NCBI RefSeq assembly: GCF_015751765.1
Contig: NZ_JADOTX010000001.1
Location: 1,178,001-1,242,000 of the forward strand
Reading direction: 5' to 3'
Length of the DNA stretch: 64,000 bases
DNA from: Micromonospora ureilytica
GTDB lineage: Bacteria > Actinomycetota > Actinomycetes > Mycobacteriales > Micromonosporaceae
Part shown: positions 30,340 through 44,514 of the stretch, piece after piece
How positions within the stretch are numbered: the stretch's first letter is position 1
How the letters are laid out: every line of letters starts with the position of its first letter
Made by a program: the position numbers and the translations under genes
Notes under the pieces: generated by a model
What the model was told of the DNA's origin: nothing
The model's input: only the letters and a program-made list of their open reading frames with translations
Database searches by the model: none

Positions 30340-32937
30340 GTGGACGAACGTTACGACAGCTACTGCGCCGCGGACCGGCTGTTCTACGACTCGCTCGGCA
30401 GCGCCGTCGCGCAGCCCGTCTTCCCGGCCGCCGAGCGGCCGATGCCGACCGGCTGGCGTCGCGAGCCGCTCGACGACTGGCTGATCTACGCGCCCGACGG
30501 CGGCTCACTGCCCCAGCAGGGCTGGAAGATTCATGTGTCGGCGGGTCTGGAGAACGCCGAGCGGGTGCTGGACGCGGTCTGGAACTACTGCGTCCCCCGC
30601 GGCCTGTCCTTCAAGTTTCTGCGCGGGCCGCGTACGCTGCTGCTCCGTAACTCCAAGTACGCCACCCGGGCCGCCAGCGGCAAGTTCATCACTGTCTATC
30701 CCCGCGACGACGCGGAGCTGGAGCTGGCCTGCAAGGAACTCGACGAACTGCTCACCGGCGAGCCCGGGCCGTACATCCTCAGTGATCTCCGCTACGGCGG
30801 CGGCCCGATCTACGTGCGCTACGGCGGCTTCGCCGCCCGCTACTGCCACTCGCCCGACGGCCAGGTGGTGCCGGCGATCGAGGACGACTCCGGCACGCTG
30901 GTGCCGGACCGCCGTGAGCCCGTCTTCCACGTACCGTCCTGGGTCACAGTGCCCGACTTCCTCGGCCCGCACCTGGCCGCCCGAAGCGACACCAGCACCG
31001 ACCAGGTGCCGTACCGGATCGAGCGGGTCATCCACTTTTCGAACGGCGGCGGGCTGTACGTGGGCAGAGACCTGCGCACCGACACCGCTGTGGTGCTGAA
31101 GGAGGCCCGACCGCACGCCGGCCTGGACGCCGACGGCACCGACGCCGTCGCCCGGCTGGCCCGCGAGGCGCAGGCCCTGCGGCAACTCGCCGACCTGCCG
31201 CAGGTGCCTCGGGTGCACGACGAGTTCGCACTCGGCGAACACCGGTTCCTCGCGCTCGAGTTCATCGAGGGCCGACCGCTGAACAAGGTGCTGGTCGACA
31301 GGTACCCGCTGATCGACGCCGACGCGACGGACGGCGACCGGGCGGCGTACGCCAGGTGGGCCCGTCAGATCTACGAGCAGGTCGAATCCGTCGTGGCGGC
31401 GATCCACGAGCGCGGTCTGGTCTACGGGGACCTGCACCTGTTCAACATCATGATCCGGCCGGACGACCGGGTCGCCCTTGTCGACTTCGAGGTGGCCGCC
31501 CCGATCGCCGGGCACCGCCGACCCGGGCTGCGCAACCAGGGCTTCGCGGCACCGAGGGACCGGACCGGCCCGGCGGTCGACAGGTACGCCCTGGCGTGCC
31601 TGCGATTGGCGCTGTTCCTGCCACTGACCCAGCTGGTCCGACTCGCCCCGGCGAAGGTGACTCACCTCGCCGACATCATCGCCGCGAACTTCCCGGTGCC
31701 GAGGTCCTTCCTCGATCCGGCGGTCGAGGAGATCACCGGTGCCCCGCGGGTCACCGTCGACCCAGCAGAGGCTCCTGGCGCGGATGACTGGCGCACCATG
31801 CGGGAGCGGCTGACGACGGCGATCGTGGCCAGCGCCACCCCGGAACGCGACGACCGGCTGTTCCCCGGCGACATCGAGCAGTTCCGCAGCGGCGGCCTCA
31901 ACCTCGCCCACGGGGCGGCGGGAGTGCTGTACGCGCTCGACAAGAGCGATGCCGGGCGGTGGCCCGAGCACGAAGACTGGCTGGTGCGGCGTGCGACAAC
32001 GCCCCCGTCCGGCACCCGCTGCGGCTTCTACGACGGGCTGCACGGTGTCGCCTACGCGCTCGAGCACCTCGGACGCCGGCAGGATGCGCTGGACGTTCTC
32101 GACATCTGCCTGCGCGAACCCCTGGACGGGCTCGACCACAGCCTGGCGAGCGGACTGTCCGGGATCGCGCTCAACCTGGCCGAGATGGCCGCGCGTACCG
32201 GGGAGGCATCGTTGCGCGACGCCGCGTGGCGGGCCGCCGAGCAGGTGATCGGCCAGTTGGCCGACGACCCGGGCCCGGACATCAGCGGCGGACGCAATCC
32301 GTACGCCGGGTTGCTGCGCGGCCGGACCGGACCGGCGCTGATGCTGTTGCGCCTCTACGAGCTCGGCGGCGACGACGAGCTGTTGGAGCACGCCGCCACG
32401 GCGTTGCGTCAGGACCTGCGCCGGTGTGTGGTGCGCCCGGACGGCGCCCTGGAGGTCAATGAGGGCTGGCGCACCATGCCCTACCTGGCGCACGGCAGTG
32501 TGGGTATCGGCCTGGTCCTCGACCAGTACCTGCGTCACCGGGCCGACGACCGGTTCGCCGAGGCGAGCGCGGGGGTTCGCCGAGCGGCCCGCTCACCGTT
32601 CTACGCCCAGTCCGGGCTCTTCGCCGGCCGGGCCGGCATCATCGCCTACCTCGCCGCCTCGACCGACGACGCCGACCGCCGCGAACTCCGCGCCCAACTG
32701 GATCGGCTGGCCTGGCACGCGCTGCCGTACCGGGACGGGACCGCATTCCCCGGCGAGCAGCTGCTGCGGCTCTCCATGGACTTCGGCACCGGCACCGCCG
32801 GCGTGCTGTACGCGCTGGCCAGCGCGCAGCACGACCAGCCGCCGGCGCTGCCCTTTCTCGCGCCCCTGCCGGGCGCGACCAGACTCCCTCGCGACAGCGG
32901 GGGCGACCCGATCGGCGAACGGATGGAAGGGAGGTGA
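30340..32937 (+). CDS. ramC: Class III lanthipeptide synthetase LanKC (RamC/AmfT-like)
   Basis: An 865-residue tri-domain enzyme. Lyase domain about 1-220; kinase domain about 225-480 with K254 (VVLKEARP), catalytic loop YGDLHLFNI (D364, N369) and metal-binding VDFE (D382); cyclase-like domain about 515-850 with Gly-rich blocks RCGFYDGLHG, LAHGSVGIG and GTGTAGVLYAL. The zinc cysteines of LanC and class IV enzymes are absent, which makes it class III. It phosphorylates and dehydrates Ser in the precursor and closes (lanthionine or labionin) rings. GTG 30340 follows GGGGCGGCGGG. The precursor gene starts 5 bases after its stop. Confidence 0.95.
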   Translation: MDERYDSYCAADRLFYDSLGSAVAQPVFPAAERPMPTGWRREPLDDWLIYAPDGGSLPQQGWKIHVSAGLENAERVLDAVWNYCVPRGLSFKFLRGPRTLLLRNSKYATRAASGKFITVYPRDDAELELACKELDELLTGEPGPYILSDLRYGGGPIYVRYGGFAARYCHSPDGQVVPAIEDDSGTLVPDRREPVFHVPSWVTVPDFLGPHLAARSDTSTDQVPYRIERVIHFSNGGGLYVGRDLRTDTAVVLKEARPHAGLDADGTDAVARLAREAQALRQLADLPQVPRVHDEFALGEHRFLALEFIEGRPLNKVLVDRYPLIDADATDGDRAAYARWARQIYEQVESVVAAIHERGLVYGDLHLFNIMIRPDDRVALVDFEVAAPIAGHRRPGLRNQGFAAPRDRTGPAVDRYALACLRLALFLPLTQLVRLAPAKVTHLADIIAANFPVPRSFLDPAVEEITGAPRVTVDPAEAPGADDWRTMRERLTTAIVASATPERDDRLFPGDIEQFRSGGLNLAHGAAGVLYALDKSDAGRWPEHEDWLVRRATTPPSGTRCGFYDGLHGVAYALEHLGRRQDALDVLDICLREPLDGLDHSLASGLSGIALNLAEMAARTGEASLRDAAWRAAEQVIGQLADDPGPDISGGRNPYAGLLRGRTGPALMLLRLYELGGDDELLEHAATALRQDLRRCVVRPDGALEVNEGWRTMPYLAHGSVGIGLVLDQYLRHRADDRFAEASAGVRRAARSPFYAQSGLFAGRAGIIAYLAASTDDADRRELRAQLDRLAWHALPYRDGTAFPGEQLLRLSMDFGTGTAGVLYALASAQHDQPPALPFLAPLPGATRLPRDSGGDPIGERMEGR

Positions 32938-32942
32938 ACGAC

Positions 32943-33062
32943 ATGGCACTTCTGGACCTCCAGGGCCTGGAGATGGCTCCGGCCGACCGCACCGGTGGCG
33001 GTAGCCGGGCGAGCCTGCTGCTCTGCGGCGACAGCTCGCTCTCCGTCACGACCTGCAACTGA
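32943..33062 (+). CDS. ramS: SapB-like class III lanthipeptide precursor (RamS/AmfS-like)
   Basis: A 39-residue peptide. The leader carries the LLDLQGLE recognition element (residues 3-10) used by LanKC enzymes. The core ends RASLLLCGDSSLSVTTCN, nearly identical to the SapB core of Streptomyces RamS. Two S-x2-S-x3-C units are present: S21/S24/C28 and S31/S34/C38. SapB is a surfactant morphogen that lets aerial hyphae leave the aqueous phase. GGGAGG lies 8 bases before the ATG. A strong hairpin follows 16 bases after the stop, probably raising precursor output relative to the exporters. Confidence 0.96.
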   Translation: MALLDLQGLEMAPADRTGGGSRASLLLCGDSSLSVTTCN

Positions 33063-33078
33063 TCCACGCACACGTGGG

Positions 33079-33110
33079 GCCCTGGGTGGGTAGACGTGCC
33101 CACCCAGGGC
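33079..33110 (+). terminator. Attenuator hairpin between precursor and exporters
   Basis: GCCCTGGGTGGG (33079-33090) pairs perfectly with CCCACCCAGGGC (33099-33110) over an 8-base loop. It lies between the precursor stop and the first exporter. Without a downstream T-run it may act as a partial terminator or as a 3' stabiliser for a short precursor transcript. Confidence 0.75.
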
Positions 33111-33134
33111 AACCGCGTACCAACGGGAGGACCG

Positions 33135-34862
33135 ATGCCGACGTTCGCCGTGGGGGACAGGCTGCTGCGGCAGACGGTCCTGGCGGGCGGCGGCTGGACC
33201 GCCGCACTCGCGGCGGTCGCGCTGCTCGGCGCGGCCGCTGAACTGTTGCTACCCGCGGCCCTCGGCCGCGCCGTCGACGCCGCCCTCGCCGGCGGCTCCG
33301 GCTGGTGGGCGGTGTCCGCCTGCGCGCTGGTCGTCGTCCTCATCGGCGTCGACACCCTGACGGATTTGGCCAGCGGCTTCGGTGCGGCGCGCGCCACCGC
33401 CGGGCTGCGTCGGCGCCTACTGCGTCACCTGTTCGCCTTGGACGTCCGCGCCACCCGCCGGCACCCGGTGGGTGATCTCGTCGGCCGGATGGTCGGCCAG
33501 GCCGCCGACGCCGGCCAGGCCGGCAACGCAGTGGTCCTGGCCATCGTGGCGGTGCTTCCGCCGCTCGGCAGCGTCGTCGCGCTCGCCATCATCGAACCGG
33601 TCCTCGGGATGACCCTGCTCGCCGGTCTCGGCCTGCTCGCCGTCCTCATGCGCGCCTTCGTGGCCGACGCCTCGACCGCGACCGCCGGGTACCAACGGGT
33701 GCTCGGCACCATCGCCGGCCGGCTGCTGGAGTCGCTGACCGGAGCCCGGACCATCGCCGCCGCCGGCACCACCCAGCGCGAGGAGGACCGGGTGCTGGCG
33801 GCCCTGCCGGAGCTGGACCGGCACGGTCGGCGCGCCTGGGAACTGCTGGCCCGGGCGAGTGCGCGCACCTCGGCCGTGGCGCCACTGCTGAACCTGAGCG
33901 TCATCGCGGTCGGCGGGTACGCCCTGACCACGGGCTGGCTCACGCCGGGCGAACTGGTCGCCGCGGTCCGGTACGCGGCCATGGGCGCCGGGCTCGGTGC
34001 AGTGCTCGCCACCCTGAACCACCTGGTCCGCAGCCGCGCGGGAGCACACCGGGTCGCCGAGTTGCTGACCCAGCCCGCCACGCCGGCCGGCGATCGGCCC
34101 CTTCCACCCGGCGGCGGCGCCCTGCGACTGCGCGGGGTGTGCGTACACGCCGACGACGGCCGGCCCATCCTGGACGGCGTCGACCTGGACGTGCCGGCCG
34201 GCGCCACAGTGGCCATCGTCGGAGCGTCCGGCGCCGGCAAGTCGACCCTGGCTGCCGTGGCGGGTCGGCTGTACGACCCCGACGGCGGTGAGGTGCGACT
34301 CGACGGCGTGCCGCTGCGGGACCTCGACGCGGCGGTGCTGCGCCGAGCCGTCGGCTACGCCTTCGACCAGCCGGTGCTGATCGGCGCGACAGTCCACGAC
34401 GCGATCGGCTTGGCGCTGCCGGTCGACGCGGCGGCGCCGCCGGCCGATCGGAGCCCGGCCACGCCGGCGGTCCTCCGGGCGAGCCGGATGGCGGCGGTCG
34501 CCGACGTGATCGATCGTCTGCCCGGCGGCTACCGCACCCCGCTGGTGGACACACCGCTGTCCGGGGGCGAGACCCAACGCCTCGGCCTGGCCCGCGCGTT
34601 CGCCGCCGAGCGGCTGCTCATCCTGGACGACGCGACGTCCAGCCTCGACACCGCTACCGAACACCGGATCACCGAGGCGGTGGTCGGGCGGGCCGGGGAG
34701 CGTACCCGCCTGGTGGTCACCCACCGGACCGCGGCGGCCGCGGCGGCCGACCTCGTCGCCTGGCTGGACGGCGGTCGACTGCGCGGCCTGGCGCCGCACC
34801 GGCAACTCTGGGCCGACCCGGACTACCGTGCCGTCTTCCAGCCGGCCGGCGGTGGGTCGTGA
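33135..34862 (+). CDS. ramA: ABC exporter half-transporter (RamA/AmfB-like)
   Basis: A 575-residue fusion of a six-helix membrane domain (about 15-300) and an ATPase (about 325-570). Walker A GASGAGKST starts at residue 363, the signature is LSGGE near 475 and Walker B is LLILDDATS. It is expected to dimerise with the next gene product and export the modified peptide. ATG 33135 follows GGGAGG; upstream in-frame codons run into the hairpin. It overlaps the next gene by 4 bases (GTGA). Confidence 0.92.
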   Translation: MPTFAVGDRLLRQTVLAGGGWTAALAAVALLGAAAELLLPAALGRAVDAALAGGSGWWAVSACALVVVLIGVDTLTDLASGFGAARATAGLRRRLLRHLFALDVRATRRHPVGDLVGRMVGQAADAGQAGNAVVLAIVAVLPPLGSVVALAIIEPVLGMTLLAGLGLLAVLMRAFVADASTATAGYQRVLGTIAGRLLESLTGARTIAAAGTTQREEDRVLAALPELDRHGRRAWELLARASARTSAVAPLLNLSVIAVGGYALTTGWLTPGELVAAVRYAAMGAGLGAVLATLNHLVRSRAGAHRVAELLTQPATPAGDRPLPPGGGALRLRGVCVHADDGRPILDGVDLDVPAGATVAIVGASGAGKSTLAAVAGRLYDPDGGEVRLDGVPLRDLDAAVLRRAVGYAFDQPVLIGATVHDAIGLALPVDAAAPPADRSPATPAVLRASRMAAVADVIDRLPGGYRTPLVDTPLSGGETQRLGLARAFAAERLLILDDATSSLDTATEHRITEAVVGRAGERTRLVVTHRTAAAAAADLVAWLDGGRLRGLAPHRQLWADPDYRAVFQPAGGGS

Positions 34863-36634
34863 GCCGACCCGGCGTACGCCTGGTGACCTGGCGGGCGCTG
34901 CGGGCCCGCCGGCGAGAGCTCGCCGCGCTCGGGGGCTGGTCGCTTGTCGAGTCGCTGCCCGCGCTGCTCTCCGGTTACCTGGTCGCCCGCGCCGTCGACG
35001 AGGGTTTCCTGGCCGGACGTCCTGTCAACGGCCTGGCCTGGTTGGGGGTCCTCGCCGTGGCCGTGCTGCTCGGCGCGGCGGCCACCGGTCGGACGTACCG
35101 GAGCCTCGGCGCCGTGGTCGAGCCGTTCCGCGACGAGGTGGCCGCTCAGGTGGTCCGGGGTGCGCTGCGCGACGCCACCCGGGCGGGCGGCCGCCCGGAC
35201 AGCGCCGCCGTGACCCGGCTGACCCACCAGATGGAGATCGTCCGCGACACCTTCGCCGGTCTGCTGATGGTGACTCGCGGGTTCCTCTTCTCCGCCGGCG
35301 CGGCCCTGCTCGGCCTGCTCGCCCTGGCACCGGTGGTGGCGGCGCTGGCCGCCGCGCCGCTGGTCGCCGGCCTGGTCGTGTTTCTCGCCGCGCTGCCGGC
35401 GATGGTCACGCACCAGCGCGCGTACGTCCGTGCCGGTGAGCGGCTCGGCCAGTCCGCGGCGGCCGCGCTGGCCGGTCACCGCGACGTGCTGGCCTGCGGG
35501 GCCCAGACACGCGTGACGACCGACGTGGCCCGCTGGGTGTCGGCGCAGGCCACCGCCGAACGCATGCTCGCGCGGATGGCGGCGATCCGCAGCCTCAGCC
35601 TCGGCATCGGCGGCTGGCTGCCACTGCTGGTGCTGATGGTGACCGCCCCGTGGCTGGTCGAGCGTGGTCTCACCGCCGGCGCGGTGCTGGGCGCGCTGAT
35701 CTACGTCTCCACTGGGCTGCAACCCGCCCTGCACACCCTGGTGCAGGGCCTCGGCGGCGGCGGGCTCCGCTACGCGGTCACCCTGGAGAACATCCTGCGC
35801 ACCTATCCGGTGTCCGACGACAAGCGCCCGTCGGCCCCCGCCGCCCGGTCACCCCACTGCCGGCCGCCCACCGGTCCTGCCGGCTGCTCGCCAGCCGTCG
35901 AGGTCCGGGGACTGACCTTCGGCTACGGCCCGCGCGCCCGGCCCATCCTGCAGAACTTCTCGCTGACACTGGCCGACCGGGACCATCTCGCCGTGGTCGG
36001 CCCGAGCGGTGCGGGCAAGTCCACACTGGCCGCCCTGCTGGCCGGTCTGGTGCCGCCGCAGGCAGGCACGGTCCACCTGGCCGGCGCGACGGTCGCCGCG
36101 GTCGAACCGGCCGAACTCGCCCGGATGCGAGTGCTGGTGCCCCAGGAGGCGTACGTCTTCACCGGAAGTCTCGCCGACAACCTCCGCTACCTCCGGCCGG
36201 ACGCTGACGATCACACGCTGGAGGTCGCCCTCGACGCGCTCGGCGCGCGTCCCCTGGCTACCCGCCTGGGCGGCCTGGGCGCGTCGGTCGCGCCGGCCCT
36301 GCTCTCCGCCGGCGAGCGGCAGCTCATCGCGGCGGTCCGGGCCTGGCTGGCACCCGCCCCGCTGGTGGTCCTCGACGAGGCGACCTGTCACCTGGACCCC
36401 GCGCTGGAAGCGACGGTCGAAGCCGCCTTCGCCCGGCGGCCCGGCAGCCTCGTGGTGATCGCACACCGGATCAGTTCCGCGCTACGCGCCGATCGGGTGC
36501 TGGTCCTCGACGGCGACGAACCCGTGGTGGGGACGCACGAACAGCTGTTGATCCGCTCGGCCACCTACCGGGTGCTCGTCGGCTGCTGGGACGAGTCCGT
36601 GCCGCCGCACGTGGCGTCGGCGCGGCAGGGCTGA
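34859..36634 (+). CDS. ramB: ABC exporter half-transporter (RamB/AmfA-like)
   Basis: A 591-residue partner of the preceding transporter: membrane domain about 20-310, ATPase about 345-580. Walker A GPSGAGKST is near 381. The signature is unusual, LSAGERQL near 482 instead of LSGGQ, while Walker B (LVVLDEATC) is intact. A degenerate signature in one half of a heterodimer is common in exporters and suggests one canonical and one atypical ATP site. GTG 34859 overlaps the upstream stop. A linker rich in Pro/Ala (about 325-350) precedes the ATPase. It ends 12 bases from the convergent regulator. Confidence 0.92.
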   Translation: MSRPGVRLVTWRALRARRRELAALGGWSLVESLPALLSGYLVARAVDEGFLAGRPVNGLAWLGVLAVAVLLGAAATGRTYRSLGAVVEPFRDEVAAQVVRGALRDATRAGGRPDSAAVTRLTHQMEIVRDTFAGLLMVTRGFLFSAGAALLGLLALAPVVAALAAAPLVAGLVVFLAALPAMVTHQRAYVRAGERLGQSAAAALAGHRDVLACGAQTRVTTDVARWVSAQATAERMLARMAAIRSLSLGIGGWLPLLVLMVTAPWLVERGLTAGAVLGALIYVSTGLQPALHTLVQGLGGGGLRYAVTLENILRTYPVSDDKRPSAPAARSPHCRPPTGPAGCSPAVEVRGLTFGYGPRARPILQNFSLTLADRDHLAVVGPSGAGKSTLAALLAGLVPPQAGTVHLAGATVAAVEPAELARMRVLVPQEAYVFTGSLADNLRYLRPDADDHTLEVALDALGARPLATRLGGLGASVAPALLSAGERQLIAAVRAWLAPAPLVVLDEATCHLDPALEATVEAAFARRPGSLVVIAHRISSALRADRVLVLDGDEPVVGTHEQLLIRSATYRVLVGCWDESVPPHVASARQG

Positions 36635-36646
36635 ACCCGGCGTCGG

Positions 36647-37231
36647 TCAGATCCAGCCCGCCTCGCCTGCCATCCGCACGGCCTCCACCCGGGTACGCGC
36701 GCCCACCTTGCGCGCGATGCGACCGAGATGGTTGCGGACGGTGCCACGGGTGAGCCCGAGCGACACCGCCACCTCCGCCACCGGCGCCCCCGCGGCCGTC
36801 AGCCGCAACACCTCCGTCTCGCGGCTGGTCAGTGGGCCGTCCGAGCGCAGCGCCGCGACGACGAGATCCGCGTCGAGCACGGGCTCCCGGCGGGCGAGCC
36901 GGCGGATCCCGTCGATGACCCGCTGGGGGCCGGCGTCGCTGCGCAGGATGCCGACCGCCCTGGTCGGGCAGAGTAGGCCGCGCAGCCGCCGGGCCCGATG
37001 CGGGTGGGCCAGCACCAGGACGGGGCACAGGCCGAGGCGGCCGGGATCGACTCCCTCGACGAAATCGAGGTCGGCCACCATCACGTCGGGGCGCTGGGCG
37101 CGAACGGCCGCGGAGACCGCGTCGCCGCGATCCACCTCCGCCACGACACGGATGTCATCCTCGGCGGCGAGGACGAACGACAGCGCGCCCAACACCAGGG
37201 CACCGTCCAGGGCGAGCAGGGTACGGATCAC
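36647..37231 (-). CDS. NarL/LuxR-type response regulator, RamR-like, atypical receiver
   Basis: A 194-residue regulator: receiver (1-115) and LuxR-type HTH (about 130-190; LTSRETEVLRLTAAG, GTVRNHLGRIARKV). The presumed phosphoacceptor D54 remains (VADLDF), but the acidic pair has one member only (LALDGA, D9) and the conserved lysine before it is replaced (ILRSDAG). In Streptomyces RamR activates ramCSAB from the same strand; here the gene is convergent with ramB. GTG 37231 has GGAAGG 6 bases upstream and matches the usual family start; a TTG at 37276 is less likely. Confidence 0.88.
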   Translation of the reverse strand: MIRTLLALDGALVLGALSFVLAAEDDIRVVAEVDRGDAVSAAVRAQRPDVMVADLDFVEGVDPGRLGLCPVLVLAHPHRARRLRGLLCPTRAVGILRSDAGPQRVIDGIRRLARREPVLDADLVVAALRSDGPLTSRETEVLRLTAAGAPVAEVAVSLGLTRGTVRNHLGRIARKVGARTRVEAVRMAGEAGWI

Positions 37232-37311
37232 GATGAACCTTCCCGCACTCCGATAGCGATCACTCAACGTCAACATTCAAACACGCATCCTGCGGGTCCG
37301 CACGGTGACGA

Positions 37312-37347
37312 GGGGCGGGTCCGGACATCTCCGACCGGACCCGCCCC
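37312..37347. terminator. Strong hairpin between the two response-regulator genes
   Basis: GGGGCGGGTCCGG (37312-37324) pairs perfectly with CCGGACCCGCCCC (37335-37347) across 10 bases. It lies 5 bases after the stop of the second regulator (minus strand), which suggests that the two regulators are transcribed separately. Confidence 0.8.
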
Positions 37348-37352
37348 AACGA

Positions 37353-37961
37353 CTACAGCCAGCCGTTACGCCGCGCGCGCGACACCGCCTCCAACCGGTT
37401 GCGAGCCCCGGTCTTGCGCAGAATCACCGACAGGTGATTGCGCACCGTCCCGTGTGCCAGGTAGAGGCGGACGGCGATCTCCTTCAGCGGCAGACCCTCG
37501 GCCGCCATCCGCAGCACGTCCATCTCCCGAGGCGTCAACGGCATCTCCGGGGGACTCAGCACCGCGACCGCCGCAGCCGGGTCGATCGCTCGCTCCCCGG
37601 CCGCGAGCGCGCGGATCGCCCGCACCAACTCGGCCAGCGAGCTGTCCTTCCCGACCAGACCGCGCGCACCGGCCGCCAGCGCCGCCTCCACCAGCGCCGG
37701 ACTCCACCGAGGGCTCATCGCCAGCACGGCGGCGTGCGGCGCCTCGACGTCGATGCGGGCGACCACCTCGACCGGGTCGGGCAGCTCCGGTGTCAGCGCC
37801 AGCACCACCACCTGCGGTCGGCACCGCCGGACCACAGTCAACAGCTCGCCGACACCCTCGACGTCGGCGACCACCTCCATGTCCTCCTCGCGTGACAGCG
37901 CGGCGCAGAGCGCCCCGCGGAGCAAACCCATGTCCTCGGCGATGACAACGTGGATCACCAC
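37353..37961 (-). CDS. NarL/LuxR-type orphan response regulator without phosphoacceptor Asp
   Basis: A 202-residue regulator with the same layout as its neighbour (HTH block LTPREMDVLRMAAEG, GTVRNHLSVILRKTGARN). The acidic pair is present (E9, D10) and the switch lysine is present (GLVGKDSS), but the phosphorylation-site segment reads VVVLALTPELP, so A55 replaces the Asp. It should work without phosphorylation, perhaps by ligand binding or protein contact. GTG 37961 (or 37958) follows GGAG. With no histidine kinase nearby, both regulators look like orphans dedicated to the ram/amf-type locus. Confidence 0.88.
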   Translation of the reverse strand: MVIHVVIAEDMGLLRGALCAALSREEDMEVVADVEGVGELLTVVRRCRPQVVVLALTPELPDPVEVVARIDVEAPHAAVLAMSPRWSPALVEAALAAGARGLVGKDSSLAELVRAIRALAAGERAIDPAAAVAVLSPPEMPLTPREMDVLRMAAEGLPLKEIAVRLYLAHGTVRNHLSVILRKTGARNRLEAVSRARRNGWL

Positions 37962-39337: not shown

Positions 39338-39632
39338 GCGGGTACGACCCCTTCCCTCTGGATAGCTGACCCATAGTAGCGATGCGCTCACGTAGTCGCA
39401 TCCTGTGCTGTGTGCGCTCGGCAGCAGCGTGCGGTCAGGTGTTCTGCCCAGAGAGGCTGAAACATCGGCTTTCGGGTGACTCTTGGGGCGGTTCCGGATC
39501 GGTCCGGGCTGGCGCCGTGACAACAATCTGACTGATTGCTCAGGGCGGCCTGTACCCCGAGTTGCCGATAGTGTCACTCGCGGCATCGAGCTGAACTCAC
39601 GCTGTCACCACAGCGATCGCCTTGGGGGGTCG

Positions 39633-41828
39633 ATGGCATCGAGTAGACGTTGGGCAGTCCTGATCGGAGTCGACCAGTGCGGCCGCGACGTTCAACTGCC
39701 ACCGCTTCGGTACGCCGAGAGTGACGCTCTCGCCCTGCGGGACGTGTTGTTGGACCAGGACATCGGCACCTTCGACGACGGTGCGGTGCAGATGTTCGTC
39801 GGTCCCGACGCCACCTGGCGCGAGATCAAACTGTTCCTGCGTGACGTGGCTCTGCGCTCCGCGCCGTCGGATGTTCTGTTCGTCTACTTCGCCGGCCATA
39901 CGCTTGTCCCACAATGGAGCGACCAGCTCGACGCCTATCTGGTCACGGCTGACCTTGATCCGGGGATGCTCGCTCGCGAACCCGACAACGGGTTGCGGAT
40001 GTCCTTCCTCAAGCGGGACATCTTCGACGCCTTCGCGGGTGCCTCGTTCCTGGTGCTCGACTGCTGCCACGCGGGTGTCTACGCCGATGCCGACCGGCGC
40101 AACATCAAGGTTCTGCAGTCCTACGCGGAGGCGGTGGACCGACCCCGGCACAACGCGTTGCTCGCCTGTCCCAGCGAATCGGTGACCCGGGAGAGCGCCG
40201 AGTATGAGCACGGAACACTGACCCACCATGTCTTGCGGGCGCTGCGGGGCGGGGCGGGCGACGAGGCGGGGCGGGTGTCGTTCGCGCAGATGGCGACGTT
40301 CGTCGCCGAGCAGGGCATGGATCTGCCGCCGGTACACACGGCGCACGTCTACGGGGCCACCACCGTGCTGACCCAACCGCCCATGTCCCGCCACGACCGC
40401 CAAGCGCTCAGCAGCCCGGCGAACCCGGGCATCTCGCGTCCCTGCCTCAACCCACTCGAGGACCAGACAAGTTCGATCCGGCAGCTGCTGGATCGGATCT
40501 TCCGGGCGGACGTCCGTTCACCCCACCAGTCTCAGCAGAGCGAACCCGACGGGCGCGTCGAACTCATTCGGCAGGCGCTCGATGCGGAATCGGCCGCAGT
40601 CGTCGAGTTCACGGGGAGCAGCTTCGGTGTGGTGAACCGAACGGCACGCTTCGACAAGGACAGCCTGTCGCCGATGCTGGAGACCGCGGCCGTCGACAGG
40701 GTGAAGCATCCGCGGGCTACACCAGGCTTTGTCGTCTCGCACGGGGTCGGTCGTCGGATGCTCTGCGTACCTCTCTCGTTCGCCAGCGACCGCACTCTCA
40801 CCCTTGCCGTGGTCGACCCGGCACTTGCCCAGCTGGACATGGGTGAACCACTGGCCGTCATGCTCCGCGCGGTCTGGGAGTCCGATCCGGTGGCCGATCC
40901 GCTGCAGTCGGAGATGACCGTCCTGACCGCTCTGCGTACCTCCTTCGGTCGACTACCGCTCAAGCTGTACGACGACGCCTTCGGCCTCTACCAACAGCTG
41001 GTCGGGTCGATGATCATGGTGTTTCAGCCGGTAGTTGAACTGGACCAACGCGCGACAGGTGTCAGCGTGCAGAGTTTCGAGGCCCTGGCCCGCCGCAACG
41101 ACCGCGAGCTGCGCGCTCCCTGGTCGGCGCTGCGCATGGCTCACGACTGGGGCGACCGTTTCGTCGTCGAACGTGATGCGATCCTCCTGGCCAAGGCGAT
41201 CCACTCCTACGCCGAGGCCGACGCCGCGTCGGGATGGCAGGGAACCAAGCCGTTGTCGGTCAACGTGGCGGTCCGCTCACTGCTCAGCGACGCGTACCTC
41301 AACCAGGTGAGCAAAGCGCTCACTGAGGCGGGGTTGCATCCCCGAACCTTGACATTGGAGATCTCCGAGCAGGATCCGATCACACCGGAGCCGGGCGAGC
41401 GGTGGCCGCAGGAGCCCCTGGTCTACTTCCACAACCGGCTGACCACGCTCGCGCGAGAGCTTCGGATCAGCTTCGCGGTCGACGACTTCGGAGTTGGCTA
41501 CGCATCGCTGGCGCGGATGGCCGAGCTCCCACTCACCCAGATCAAGGTCGACCGCGCGATCCTGCACCACCCCATGGCGTTGGAGGAACTCGCGCTCGTG
41601 GCGCGTGTCGCTCGCTATGCCAGCGACCAGGGACAGACCGGGCAGCCGAGGACGGTCATTGTCGAGGGCTTCGATGATGACGCTCCAGTCAGTCTGTACG
41701 AGATCTTCCGTTTGGGGATCCATCACGTGCAGGGCTACTTCAGCGGTGCGGTCGCCTCGACCACGCTCCACGAGCTGGATCCAGCCGTGCAGGAACGGAT
41801 CGCATCACTCGTGAGAGGGGAGACGTGA
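39633..41828 (+). CDS. Caspase-like protease fused to GAF-like region and EAL phosphodiesterase
   Basis: A 731-residue fusion with no signal or membrane helix. Caspase-like (C14) domain about 5-250: catalytic H89 (YFAGHT) and C145 (LDCCHAG). GAF-like region about 305-420 (inference from pattern). EAL domain about 455-725 with all key residues visible: E483 (FEALAR), N544 (SVNVA), E576 (LTLEIS), D617/D618 (AVDDFGVGYASL), K638 (QIKVD), E678 (VEGF) and Q700 (VQGYF). It could hydrolyse cyclic di-GMP or read it out to switch proteolysis. GGGGGG precedes ATG 39633; a TTG at 39483 is unlikely. It overlaps the next gene by 4 bases. Confidence 0.93.
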   Translation: MASSRRWAVLIGVDQCGRDVQLPPLRYAESDALALRDVLLDQDIGTFDDGAVQMFVGPDATWREIKLFLRDVALRSAPSDVLFVYFAGHTLVPQWSDQLDAYLVTADLDPGMLAREPDNGLRMSFLKRDIFDAFAGASFLVLDCCHAGVYADADRRNIKVLQSYAEAVDRPRHNALLACPSESVTRESAEYEHGTLTHHVLRALRGGAGDEAGRVSFAQMATFVAEQGMDLPPVHTAHVYGATTVLTQPPMSRHDRQALSSPANPGISRPCLNPLEDQTSSIRQLLDRIFRADVRSPHQSQQSEPDGRVELIRQALDAESAAVVEFTGSSFGVVNRTARFDKDSLSPMLETAAVDRVKHPRATPGFVVSHGVGRRMLCVPLSFASDRTLTLAVVDPALAQLDMGEPLAVMLRAVWESDPVADPLQSEMTVLTALRTSFGRLPLKLYDDAFGLYQQLVGSMIMVFQPVVELDQRATGVSVQSFEALARRNDRELRAPWSALRMAHDWGDRFVVERDAILLAKAIHSYAEADAASGWQGTKPLSVNVAVRSLLSDAYLNQVSKALTEAGLHPRTLTLEISEQDPITPEPGERWPQEPLVYFHNRLTTLARELRISFAVDDFGVGYASLARMAELPLTQIKVDRAILHHPMALEELALVARVARYASDQGQTGQPRTVIVEGFDDDAPVSLYEIFRLGIHHVQGYFSGAVASTTLHELDPAVQERIASLVRGET

Positions 41829-42163
41829 CGAGCGTCAAGCTCCTGCTACCGGCCGAGGTGATCGAGGAACTCGATCTGCCCTACGAGGGGGTTCGCGACA
41901 GCGGTGCGATCACCGTGGCGATCGAGGGGATCGCCGTGTTGGCGAATCTGGCCACCCTGGCCACGCTGCAGCCACAGGCGGAGGCACTGGTCGCCGCAAT
42001 CCGTAACTGGCGCCTGCGCAACCATCAGAAGCCGGCGGTGTTGACGGTCGAGGGGGCGACCATCAGCCTGCGGATCGAGCTGCCGCCCAACGTCAGCCGA
42101 GCGGCCCTGCTTCGGCAACTTGAACCACTGCTCGATGAGGAGAGATCCCATGGCGCGAGGTGA
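41825..42163 (+). CDS. Small effector-associated (EACC1-like) component
   Basis: A 112-residue soluble protein. A beta strand (VKLLLPAEV) is followed by an alanine-rich helical middle (VLANLATLATLQPQAEALVA) and a two-strand end (PAVLTVEGATISLRIELPP). The order helix, W-R-R segment, then LTVxGxxIxLR resembles the Effector-Associated Constant Component family found beside caspase, trypsin and NTPase effectors in actinobacterial conflict systems. This is pattern recognition, not a database hit. GTG 41825 overlaps the protease stop, so it is translated with the caspase-EAL protein and probably binds it. Confidence 0.7.
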   Translation: MTSVKLLLPAEVIEELDLPYEGVRDSGAITVAIEGIAVLANLATLATLQPQAEALVAAIRNWRLRNHQKPAVLTVEGATISLRIELPPNVSRAALLRQLEPLLDEERSHGAR

Positions 42164-42204: not shown

Positions 42205-42216
42205 CTAGGTAACTAG
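42205..42216. promoter_or_regulatory. Palindromic operator before the YtrA-type regulator
   Basis: CTAG-GTAA-CTAG at 42205-42216 sits 17 bases before the GTG at 42234, within TTGTGCTAGGTAACTAGTGG. Position and symmetry fit an autoregulatory site for the adjacent GntR protein. CTAG is rare in GC-rich DNA, so the pair is noteworthy. Confidence 0.55.
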
Positions 42217-42233
42217 TGGAATGGGGTGGCGAG

Positions 42234-42623
42234 GTGATCGAGTTTCACCTGGACTCACGGTCCGGGGTTGCGCCGTACATGCAGCTCATCCGACAGGTAC
42301 GGCACGCACTCCGGCTCGGGGTCCTGAACGAAGGCGACAAGCTGCCCACCGTCAAGGAGGTGGTGGCCCGGGTCGCCATCAACCCGAACACGGTGTCCAA
42401 GGCATACCGCGAACTGGAGTACGAGGGTCTGGTCACGGCACGGCCGGGACTGGGCACGTTCGTCACCCGCACGCTGGGCGGCGACTCGCTGAGCAAGCAC
42501 GAGCCGCTGCGGCAGGACCTGGCGCGCTGGCTGACCGAGGCTCGGGAGGCGGGCCTGGACGACGAGAGCATCGAGGCGCTCTTCCTCAGCAGCTTTCGGG
42601 CTTTTTCGGAGGCCCGAGCATGA
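42234..42623 (+). CDS. GntR-family regulator, YtrA subfamily
   Basis: A 129-residue regulator. The winged helix is at about residues 8-75 (YMQLIRQVRHALRLGVLNEG, PTVKEVVARVAINPNTVSKA, then LVTARPGLGTFV), followed by a short YtrA-type helical tail. YtrA regulators control adjacent ABC transporters, and here the ATPase gene overlaps the stop (ATGA). GTG 42234 is chosen as the usual family start (IEFHLDSRSG) with GGGG 7 bases upstream; GTG 42216 would add 6 residues and would overlap the palindrome. Confidence 0.92.
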   Translation: MIEFHLDSRSGVAPYMQLIRQVRHALRLGVLNEGDKLPTVKEVVARVAINPNTVSKAYRELEYEGLVTARPGLGTFVTRTLGGDSLSKHEPLRQDLARWLTEAREAGLDDESIEALFLSSFRAFSEARA

Positions 42624-43501
42624 CTAGCGCCCTGATCGCGGACGGTCTGACCAAACGGTACGGGCGGCGTTCCGCACTGAAGGACTGCACTCTGGACATC
42701 CCGGCCGGCCACGTCGTGGGCCTGGTCGGGCCGAACGGCGCCGGCAAGTCCACGTTGCTGCAACTGGCCTGTGGGCTGCTCGATCCGACCGCGGGGCGGA
42801 TCGAGGTGCTCGGCGCGCGGCCGGTCAGCGGGTCGCCGCAGGTCGGGTTCGTCGCGCAGGACACCCCGGTCTACGCCGGCCTGACCGTCGCGGACCACCT
42901 GCGGATGGGCGCGCACCTCAACCCGTCCTGGGACGGTGCGCTCGCCGAGCGGCGGATCGCCCAGGTCGGCCTGGACCCGGCACAGAAGGCGGGCAAGCTC
43001 TCCGGCGGCCAGCGCGCCCAGCTGGCCCTGACCGTCGCCGCGGCGAAGCGGCCCAATCTGCTGCTGCTCGACGAGCCGGTGGCGGCACTCGACCCGCTCG
43101 CCCGGCGCAATTTCCTGCAGGGGCTGATGGAGTTGACGGCCGAGCAGGGCATGAGTGTCGTGATGTCCTCGCACCTGGTGGCCGACCTGGAGCGGGTCTG
43201 CGACCACCTGATCGTGCTGGTCGCCTCGCGGGTGCGGGTGGCCGGTGACGTGGACGATCTGCTGGCCACCCACCACCGCCTGGTCGGGCAGCGGCGCGAC
43301 ACCGCCGACCTGGGCGCCGGGCGGGCCTTGGTCGAGCAGAGCCACACCGACGTGCAGTCGACCCTGGTGGTGCGCAGCACCGCGCCGATCGTCGACCCGT
43401 CCTGGCAGGTCGACCGGCTGGACCTGGAGGACATTGTGCTGGCGTACATGAGCGGAGCCACCGGCGACGGGCCGGAACGGGTTCTGGAGGGACAGCGATG
43501 A
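42620..43501 (+). CDS. ABC transporter ATP-binding protein
   Basis: A 293-residue ATPase. Walker A GPNGAGKST (37-45), Q-loop FVAQDTP, signature KLSGGQRAQLAL, Walker B NLLLLDEPVAALDPLARR and H-loop SSHL are all present. The C-terminal 70 residues are a regulatory extension. It pairs with the permease downstream, which starts within its stop codon. The YtrA-type regulator in front suggests induction by cell-envelope or antibiotic stress, as for other YtrA operons. The exported compound is unknown. Confidence 0.93.
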   Translation: MTSALIADGLTKRYGRRSALKDCTLDIPAGHVVGLVGPNGAGKSTLLQLACGLLDPTAGRIEVLGARPVSGSPQVGFVAQDTPVYAGLTVADHLRMGAHLNPSWDGALAERRIAQVGLDPAQKAGKLSGGQRAQLALTVAAAKRPNLLLLDEPVAALDPLARRNFLQGLMELTAEQGMSVVMSSHLVADLERVCDHLIVLVASRVRVAGDVDDLLATHHRLVGQRRDTADLGAGRALVEQSHTDVQSTLVVRSTAPIVDPSWQVDRLDLEDIVLAYMSGATGDGPERVLEGQR

Positions 43502-44514
43502 TCTGGATGACCTGGCGGCAGTTCCGCACCCCGACCCTGGCCACCGGTGGCCTGCTGCTGGTGGTCCTGGGTGGTCTGGCGCTGACCTGGGCGGAGGTGA
43601 CCGAGCTGGCCACGCAGACCGGATACACCGGCTGCCAGGGCGATGCCTGCCTCGCCGCCGGCGAAGCGTTCCTCCAAGCGCTGCAACCAAAATGGGCGAA
43701 CGAGTTCCACATCGCCGCCATCGCGGCCCTGTACCTGCTGCCCGCCCTGGTGGGCATCTTCTGGGGCGCGCCGCTGGTGGCCCGGGAGCTCGAGTCCGGC
43801 ACGTACCGCATGGTCTTCAGCCAGTCCGTCAGCCGTGTCCGCTGGCTGCTGGTCAAGCTGGCGGTCGGCGCTGGGGCCGCAGCGCTCGGCGCCGGCCTGC
43901 TCAGCCTGATGCTCACCAGATGGGCGCAATCGATCGACGGGGCCTCGGCGGACCGGATGAACCCGCTGGTGTTCGCGGCCCGGGGGATCGTCCCGATTGG
44001 CTACGCGACGCTGGCCTTCGTGGTGGGTGTCTTCACCGGGCTGGTGCTGCGGCGGACCCTCGCCGCGATGGCGGTGACCCTGCTGGTGGTGGTCGGCCTC
44101 CAGATCGCCGCGCCGTTCGTGGTGCGCCCCTGGCTGGCTCAGCCGGTCACCACCGTCACCCCTCTGACGTTCGACGGCGACTTCGGGATCTCGATGAACC
44201 CCGACACCGGGCACATGACGGTCCACGTCGAGCCCGAGCGCAGGGGTGACTGGGTCGTGTCGAGCACCACGATCACCTCGACCGGAGCGGAGTTCAGTGG
44301 TCCGGCCGATATGACCCAGTGCGGTCCGCGGGCGTCCGGTGGGCGCGAGGCGTGCCAGAGATGGCTGGGGCAGCAGAACCTCAGCCTGAAGGTGAGCTAC
44401 GTGTCCGGCTCGAAGTTCTGGGGCCTGCAGTGGCGGGAGTTCGGCGTGCTGTTCGCAGTGGCCGTCGTGCTGTCCCTGCTCTCCCTCTGGTGGGTCCGCC
44501 GCCGACTGGTCTGA
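43498..44514 (+). CDS. ABC-2-like transporter permease
   Basis: A 338-residue membrane protein with six predicted helices and a large outward loop (about residues 215-300) containing a cysteine pair. It starts MIWMTWRQFR, typical of actinobacterial ABC-2 permeases linked to YtrA regulators, and ends with a basic cytoplasmic tail. Blocks include GIFWGAPLVARELESGTYRM, the conserved motif of this permease type. Its ATG overlaps the ATPase stop. A strong hairpin follows its stop. Confidence 0.9.
   Translation: MIWMTWRQFRTPTLATGGLLLVVLGGLALTWAEVTELATQTGYTGCQGDACLAAGEAFLQALQPKWANEFHIAAIAALYLLPALVGIFWGAPLVARELESGTYRMVFSQSVSRVRWLLVKLAVGAGAAALGAGLLSLMLTRWAQSIDGASADRMNPLVFAARGIVPIGYATLAFVVGVFTGLVLRRTLAAMAVTLLVVVGLQIAAPFVVRPWLAQPVTTVTPLTFDGDFGISMNPDTGHMTVHVEPERRGDWVVSSTTITSTGAEFSGPADMTQCGPRASGGREACQRWLGQQNLSLKVSYVSGSKFWGLQWREFGVLFAVAVVLSLLSLWWVRRRLV

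Follow-up and report, generated by a model that had tools for sequence, protein, structure and literature searches.

Two overlapping genes were studied in a window of 64,000 nucleotides, the whole stretch of Micromonospora ureilytica DNA that was analysed. The long gene encodes a chain in which a caspase domain and an EAL phosphodiesterase domain are joined, and the small gene overlaps its 3' end. The features, in window positions, were as follows.

39624..39629, + strand: probable ribosome-binding site, a G-run ahead of the ATG, read by eye
39633..41828, + strand, stop included: long gene, caspase - linker - PAS/GAF-like - EAL, 731 aa
39645..40370, + strand: caspase domain, residues 5-246
39897-39899 and 40065-40067, + strand: codons of the caspase dyad, H89 and C145
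40371..40538, + strand: linker, residues 247-302, its lengths and sequences compared among relatives
40539..40886, + strand: middle domain, PAS/GAF-like, residues 303-418, by predicted secondary structure only
41004..41741, + strand: EAL phosphodiesterase domain, residues 458-703, all catalytic residues there
41825..42163, + strand: small partner gene, 112 aa, with a remote EACC1-like domain in its second half

The long protein had an N-terminal caspase fold with an intact His/Cys dyad (H89/C145), and it had the EAL fold with all catalytic residues; both sites were complete in one chain of 731 residues, just as the earlier note had read them. The best NCBIfam match of the caspase part was 'caspase, EACC1-associated type' (1.1e-24), with 87 bits under a cut-off of 140. 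Structure prediction, which that note had proposed for both proteins, gave a model of the long protein with low confidence at residues 258-268 inside the linker; the model of the small protein was poor (pLDDT 56.2) and gave no match at E ≤ 0.001 in a fold search. The middle domain had been taken for a GAF domain, which was not upheld: Pfam GAF had no match in the window protein, nor in the 10 relatives and 31 middle regions searched, and the matches from the fold search of the long protein covered the EAL part almost alone. The order of secondary-structure elements in the structure model fits PAS/GAF, and the domain is called PAS/GAF-like on this predicted secondary structure only. A weak match to MshEN, a c-di-GMP-binding family, was also located in the middle domain (window 40713-40823, residues 361-397). 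Such matches were found in 8 of 31 middle regions, the best with E 0.0059 and 17 bits (under the cut-off of 23.1), and they spanned some 35 of 90 positions. The match was judged to be probably chance, though if true it would be of importance as a second c-di-GMP site.

The protein search with the long protein yielded 332 relatives at E ≤ 0.001. Among the 120 of these that were listed, query coverage was mostly 95-100%, and the names were Micromonospora, Couchioplanes, Dactylosporangium, Actinoplanes, Asanoa and Frankia, together with metagenomes. Of 160 Micromonospora genomes, 19 carried the caspase half (E ≤ 3.2e-83, with the next match only at 2.4e-14), and the middle and EAL half was in the same 19. 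The domain order, which the earlier note had proposed to look for in other genomes, did recur: the long protein was present in 36 of 300 genomes of the family and in 3 of 394 of the class, own genome included. When 354 family genomes were searched with the profile of the small protein, 24 strong genes came up (E ≤ 2.5e-35), besides a single remnant. All 24 strong genes adjoined a long protein and none lay elsewhere, which supported the earlier proposal that the small gene is a true partner of the long protein. Their partners were 22 full-length copies, one long gene without the caspase catalytic (5') part (L131, in G173) and one decayed copy (L232, in G434). A DDE transposase gene was noted about 1.5 kb upstream of L131. 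The lone remnant (L254, G176:C12:1765-1890) covered residues 57-106 at 64% identity, with no long gene in its 3.1 kb, and was left out of the small-gene counts.

The surroundings of the pair were unrelated across 22 loci. Within 7.5 kb of the pair, the other genes of the window recurred only as matches of 24-38% identity at varying distances, and these were common types, ABC transporters and a GntR-type gene among them. The patchy presence and the unlike neighbours point to a mobile or repeatedly lost accessory element. As to the 'conflict system' of the earlier note, PADLOC recognised the long protein by its generic caspase model only (2e-9), the shared neighbours were low-identity common types, and kinship to EACC1 was left as the one basis of the claim. 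Directly 3' of the pair, a GntR-type regulator was followed by genes that look by eye like an ABC transporter (42216-44514, +), an arrangement not common to the other loci among the 22 compared. The window also held a SapB/AmfS-type class III lanthipeptide cluster (30340-36634, +; 36647-37961, -), consisting of a LanKC synthetase (30340-32937), a 42-aa precursor (32934-33062) and two ABC exporter genes, with two genes of response-regulator type on the opposite strand (36647-37961). SapB-type peptides are developmental morphogens. In the comparison of 22 loci, no such cluster was found beside the caspase-EAL gene. Several Actinoplanes-type genomes differed in that the form without the small gene stood among neighbours common to up to 9 of 21 loci, and there it looks vertically inherited. 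The 21 small-less loci were inspected for a gene that might have replaced the partner: no common short gene lay directly 3' in the 25 largest neighbour clusters, which contained neighbours common to subsets of these loci only; no remnant of the small gene was found in L130.

The earlier note had likened the small protein to EACC1-type components, and this held in part. Profile-profile comparison with EACC1 gave a probability of 83% (59 small proteins, 30 EACC1) and 80% (122 small proteins). Column shuffles gave ≤1.6% (n=30) and ≤2.1% (n=60), reversal of the profile gave 0.5 and 0.6%, and 24 slices of another real alignment gave ≤10.5%. The match lies in the second half of the small protein and comprises a helix, a Trp, two strands and a helix. 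Pfam EACC1 (PF19953) had no match in the window small protein; it matched 8 of 59 relatives, at best with E 0.012, which is no better than the matches of an unrelated family in 11 of 59, and it was absent among the 120 profile matches of the small protein that were listed. With E-values computed for the frames of one locus only, a profile of 30 EACC1 domains recognised the small gene at 7 out of 24 loci (1e-5 to 1.2e-3), but not at the window locus, and the small-protein profile found 1 of 29 EACC1 genes (L054, 6.4e-7). The small protein is thus read as carrying a remote EACC1-like domain.

The gene order was another point on which the likeness failed. The small gene was 3' of the caspase gene in the window and in all 24 other loci having it, whereas the classical EACC1 gene lies 5' of its caspase gene. 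In the family, a caspase was directly 3' of EACC1 in 21 of 29 classical loci and 5' in one, and none was found within about 1.5 kb in 7 of 29. A profile of caspases from the long-protein family picked up the caspase 3' of 21 of the 29 classical EACC1 genes. The own genome contained a single classical EACC1 gene, an orphan with no caspase neighbour (L135 9511-9942; C1:1601511-1601942). At 3 of 11 loci looked at (L095, L101 and L102; L101 weak), a different Micromonospora caspase gene had an EACC1-like gene close by, so the genus also contains EACC1 systems that are separate from this pair.

To compare the two catalytic sites, a table of 46 loci was used, consisting of the window and 45 loci with known neighbourhood; L231 and L232, found later with another query, stood outside it. 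All eight EAL residues were intact in 46 of 46 loci, and E579 as well. Among the loci with the small gene, the dyad was intact in 24 and dead in none, and the one without the caspase catalytic region (L131) was left out of the two-state count. Among the loci scored as small-less, by a profile search in which a strongly diverged partner or a gene at a contig end could escape notice, the dyad was intact in 5 (L130, L168-L171) and dead in 16 (L173-L188). Dead dyads therefore occurred only in small-less loci, and the combination of small gene and dead dyad was not encountered in the 46. In the aligned proteins (the window and 120 of the 332 relatives, 121 in total), the EAL residues were all kept in 120, the exception being P0120, which is cut short at its C-terminus. 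In the same 121, H89 was kept in 113, C145 in 117 and both in 111, the non-intact rows including one without the caspase dyad region. One further protein (G443) comprised the middle and EAL parts without caspase and without small gene, and its EAL residues were intact.

On a tree of the 46 rows built without the caspase columns, 3 dyad changes and 4 small-gene changes were placed. The pair test gave 4 independent pairs, which changed the same way 1.9 times on average and never the opposite way (median p 0.5); because independent events were few, the tree-corrected association between dyad and small gene was not significant. On a wider quick tree of 134 rows (46 + 88), at least 10 branches had lost or lacked the dyad, two truncated N-termini (L131, P0045) included, and 28 rows were dead or absent; the database rows, which come without neighbourhood, say nothing on the small gene. 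At 94-95% EAL identity, caspase identity was 91% in the small-gene group (23 pairs) and 72% in the dead group (51 pairs), which suggested that constraint on the caspase is relaxed in the latter. The linkers of relatives showed no cleavage motif and no regular shortening or change with dyad loss. In G434, the intact copy L171 had no adjoining small gene and the small gene stood beside the decayed second copy L232, so L171 may be served in trans. In the other four small-less, dyad-intact genomes (G227, G361, G459, G349), no small gene was found anywhere.

All 46 loci thus retained the EAL site, but the dyad was dead in 16 of 21 small-less loci and had been lost or was lacking on the branches counted above. 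This pattern argues for a role of the phosphodiesterase that outlives the protease, and it disfavours the suggestion of the earlier note that c-di-GMP gates proteolysis. The phosphodiesterase would be the output, and the caspase and its partner would together form a regulatory module that lineages can lose. Since intact dyads without small gene were seen and a small gene with dead dyad never was, an activator or sensor fits the small protein better than an antidote, although the five loci with intact dyad and no small gene mean that the caspase may also act without it. The pair is accordingly best described as a putative two-gene signalling cassette, a variant of the EACC1-caspase systems that has a predicted c-di-GMP phosphodiesterase as effector and in which the order of action runs from small protein to caspase to EAL; we put the probability of this reading, drawn from comparison of sequences, at about 0.48.

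The small protein would then be a positive partner of the caspase, which on its cue would cut, most likely its own chain in the 247-302 linker, and free or unlock the PAS/GAF-like-EAL part. Self-cleavage in the linker is the simplest step that we infer between caspase and phosphodiesterase, and Kaur et al. propose the same for EACC1 systems (PMC7159879). In Streptomyces, c-di-GMP holds the BldD and RsiG-sigmaWhiG complexes that block sporulation, as these are presented in PMC6205966 and PMC13232838. If, as assumed here, Micromonospora controls development by c-di-GMP in a like manner, a fall of c-di-GMP would let such c-di-GMP-dependent developmental repressors release their targets. In lineages losing the small gene, the caspase would turn into a pseudo-protease domain or disappear, and the phosphodiesterase would work under the middle domain alone.

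Three other explanations were weighed. The roles could be reversed, in a trigger-phosphodiesterase arrangement like the one suggested by the earlier note: the EAL domain, by binding or hydrolysing c-di-GMP, would hold back or license the caspase, and the output would be the cutting of some cellular target. PdeR and PdeL provide examples of active EAL enzymes which control a bound partner while degrading their ligand (Hengge 2016, PMC5052742), and both sites are intact in the window protein, with the dyad kept in all 24 scorable loci with the small gene. However, the EAL site was retained in 16 of 16 dead-dyad loci and in the caspase-less G443, where a catalytic EAL would be superfluous if proteolysis were the output, and this arrangement is considered rather improbable. 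Somewhat less credit is given to the caspase part as a binding or dimerisation scaffold for the phosphodiesterase, with a minor protease and the small protein as a structural subunit. The caspase core did survive dyad loss (G12, D31, D80, G88, Y102, D143 and G194 were kept in 16 of 16 dead-dyad members), and about 70% of the caspases in the effector position of vWA systems are inactive according to Kaur et al. 2020 (PMC7159879). Against a scaffold, the dyad together with C144, A147 and G148 did not vary among the 24 members that have the small gene, two of which are loci from a different family of the class.

A harmful caspase (or phosphodiesterase) with the small protein as its antidote, in a defence or addiction module, is very unlikely. 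Two overlapping genes, patchy presence (the 19 Micromonospora genomes), unrelated surroundings and kinship to predicted conflict systems would all suit such a module, but an intact long protein without any small gene was found in four genomes, and the small gene was never beside a dead dyad, though an antidote would be expected to linger there. A wider form of the signalling cassette is possible but rather doubtful, in which a caspase wired in one chain, and via an EACC1-like partner, to c-di-GMP destruction would serve as an all-or-none proteolytic switch, collapsing a messenger that restrains actinobacterial development and perhaps also stressed or phage-infected mycelium, so that a death-type protease acts via a nucleotide signal and not by killing.

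For EACC1-caspase systems, the release of variable effectors by proteolysis is predicted from sequence. Here a single reaction that can be measured, c-di-GMP hydrolysis, is the predicted output, its physiological read-out in filamentous actinobacteria is known, and members without partner, with dead protease or without caspase are natural controls, which makes the idea of protease-to-effector control directly testable. If true, it would link caspase-type proteases to the c-di-GMP control of development.

Among known systems, the closest are the EACC1-caspase systems ('System 4', Kaur et al. 2020, eLife, PMC7159879), for which up to 50 different C-terminal domains are described and a logic is proposed in which the partner activates the caspase and self-cleavage deploys the effector. 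The cassette shares with them an N-terminal caspase, here with the EACC1-associated type as its best match, a variable C-terminal effector (here EAL), a small partner with the EACC1-like helix-Trp-strands-helix and actinobacterial, multicellular hosts. Unlike theirs, the partner gene is 3' instead of 5', the partner scores below the Pfam EACC1 cut-off, the effector is EAL with an extra PAS/GAF-like domain, and dyad and partner have been lost repeatedly with the effector retained (PMC7159879). Owing to the reversed gene order and the missed curated cut-offs, it is regarded as a variant of these systems and not a member, which by analogy probably works like one. EAL as a whole word was absent from the main texts of the two EACC1 papers, whose supplementary tables may list it. 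The earlier note's statement that a caspase-EAL chain is undescribed agreed with the literature on caspase with EAL or c-di-GMP, which gave none, in a search that lay outside the supplementary domain lists of Kaur et al. 2020.

A precedent on the synthesis side was provided by a cyanobacterial metacaspase-GGDEF protein, a single sequence, in which a caspase homologue likewise shares a chain with a domain for c-di-GMP turnover (Asplund-Samuelsson et al. 2012, PMC3501461). That domain is for synthesis, and no partner gene is mentioned in the account of it drawn on here, whereas the EAL domain of the present protein is for degradation. As in PdeR and PdeL, an EAL enzyme, here of predicted activity, may control another activity that is attached to it or bound by it; those two act on a transcription factor or on promoter DNA (PMC5052742) and not on a protease, which is here favoured as input. 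Although RmdA and RmdB are described as GGDEF-EAL proteins with PAS or membrane parts and without caspase (PMC6205966), they are, like the enzyme predicted here, EAL phosphodiesterases of filamentous actinobacteria, and in Streptomyces they lower c-di-GMP and promote development (PMC6205966; PMC13232838).
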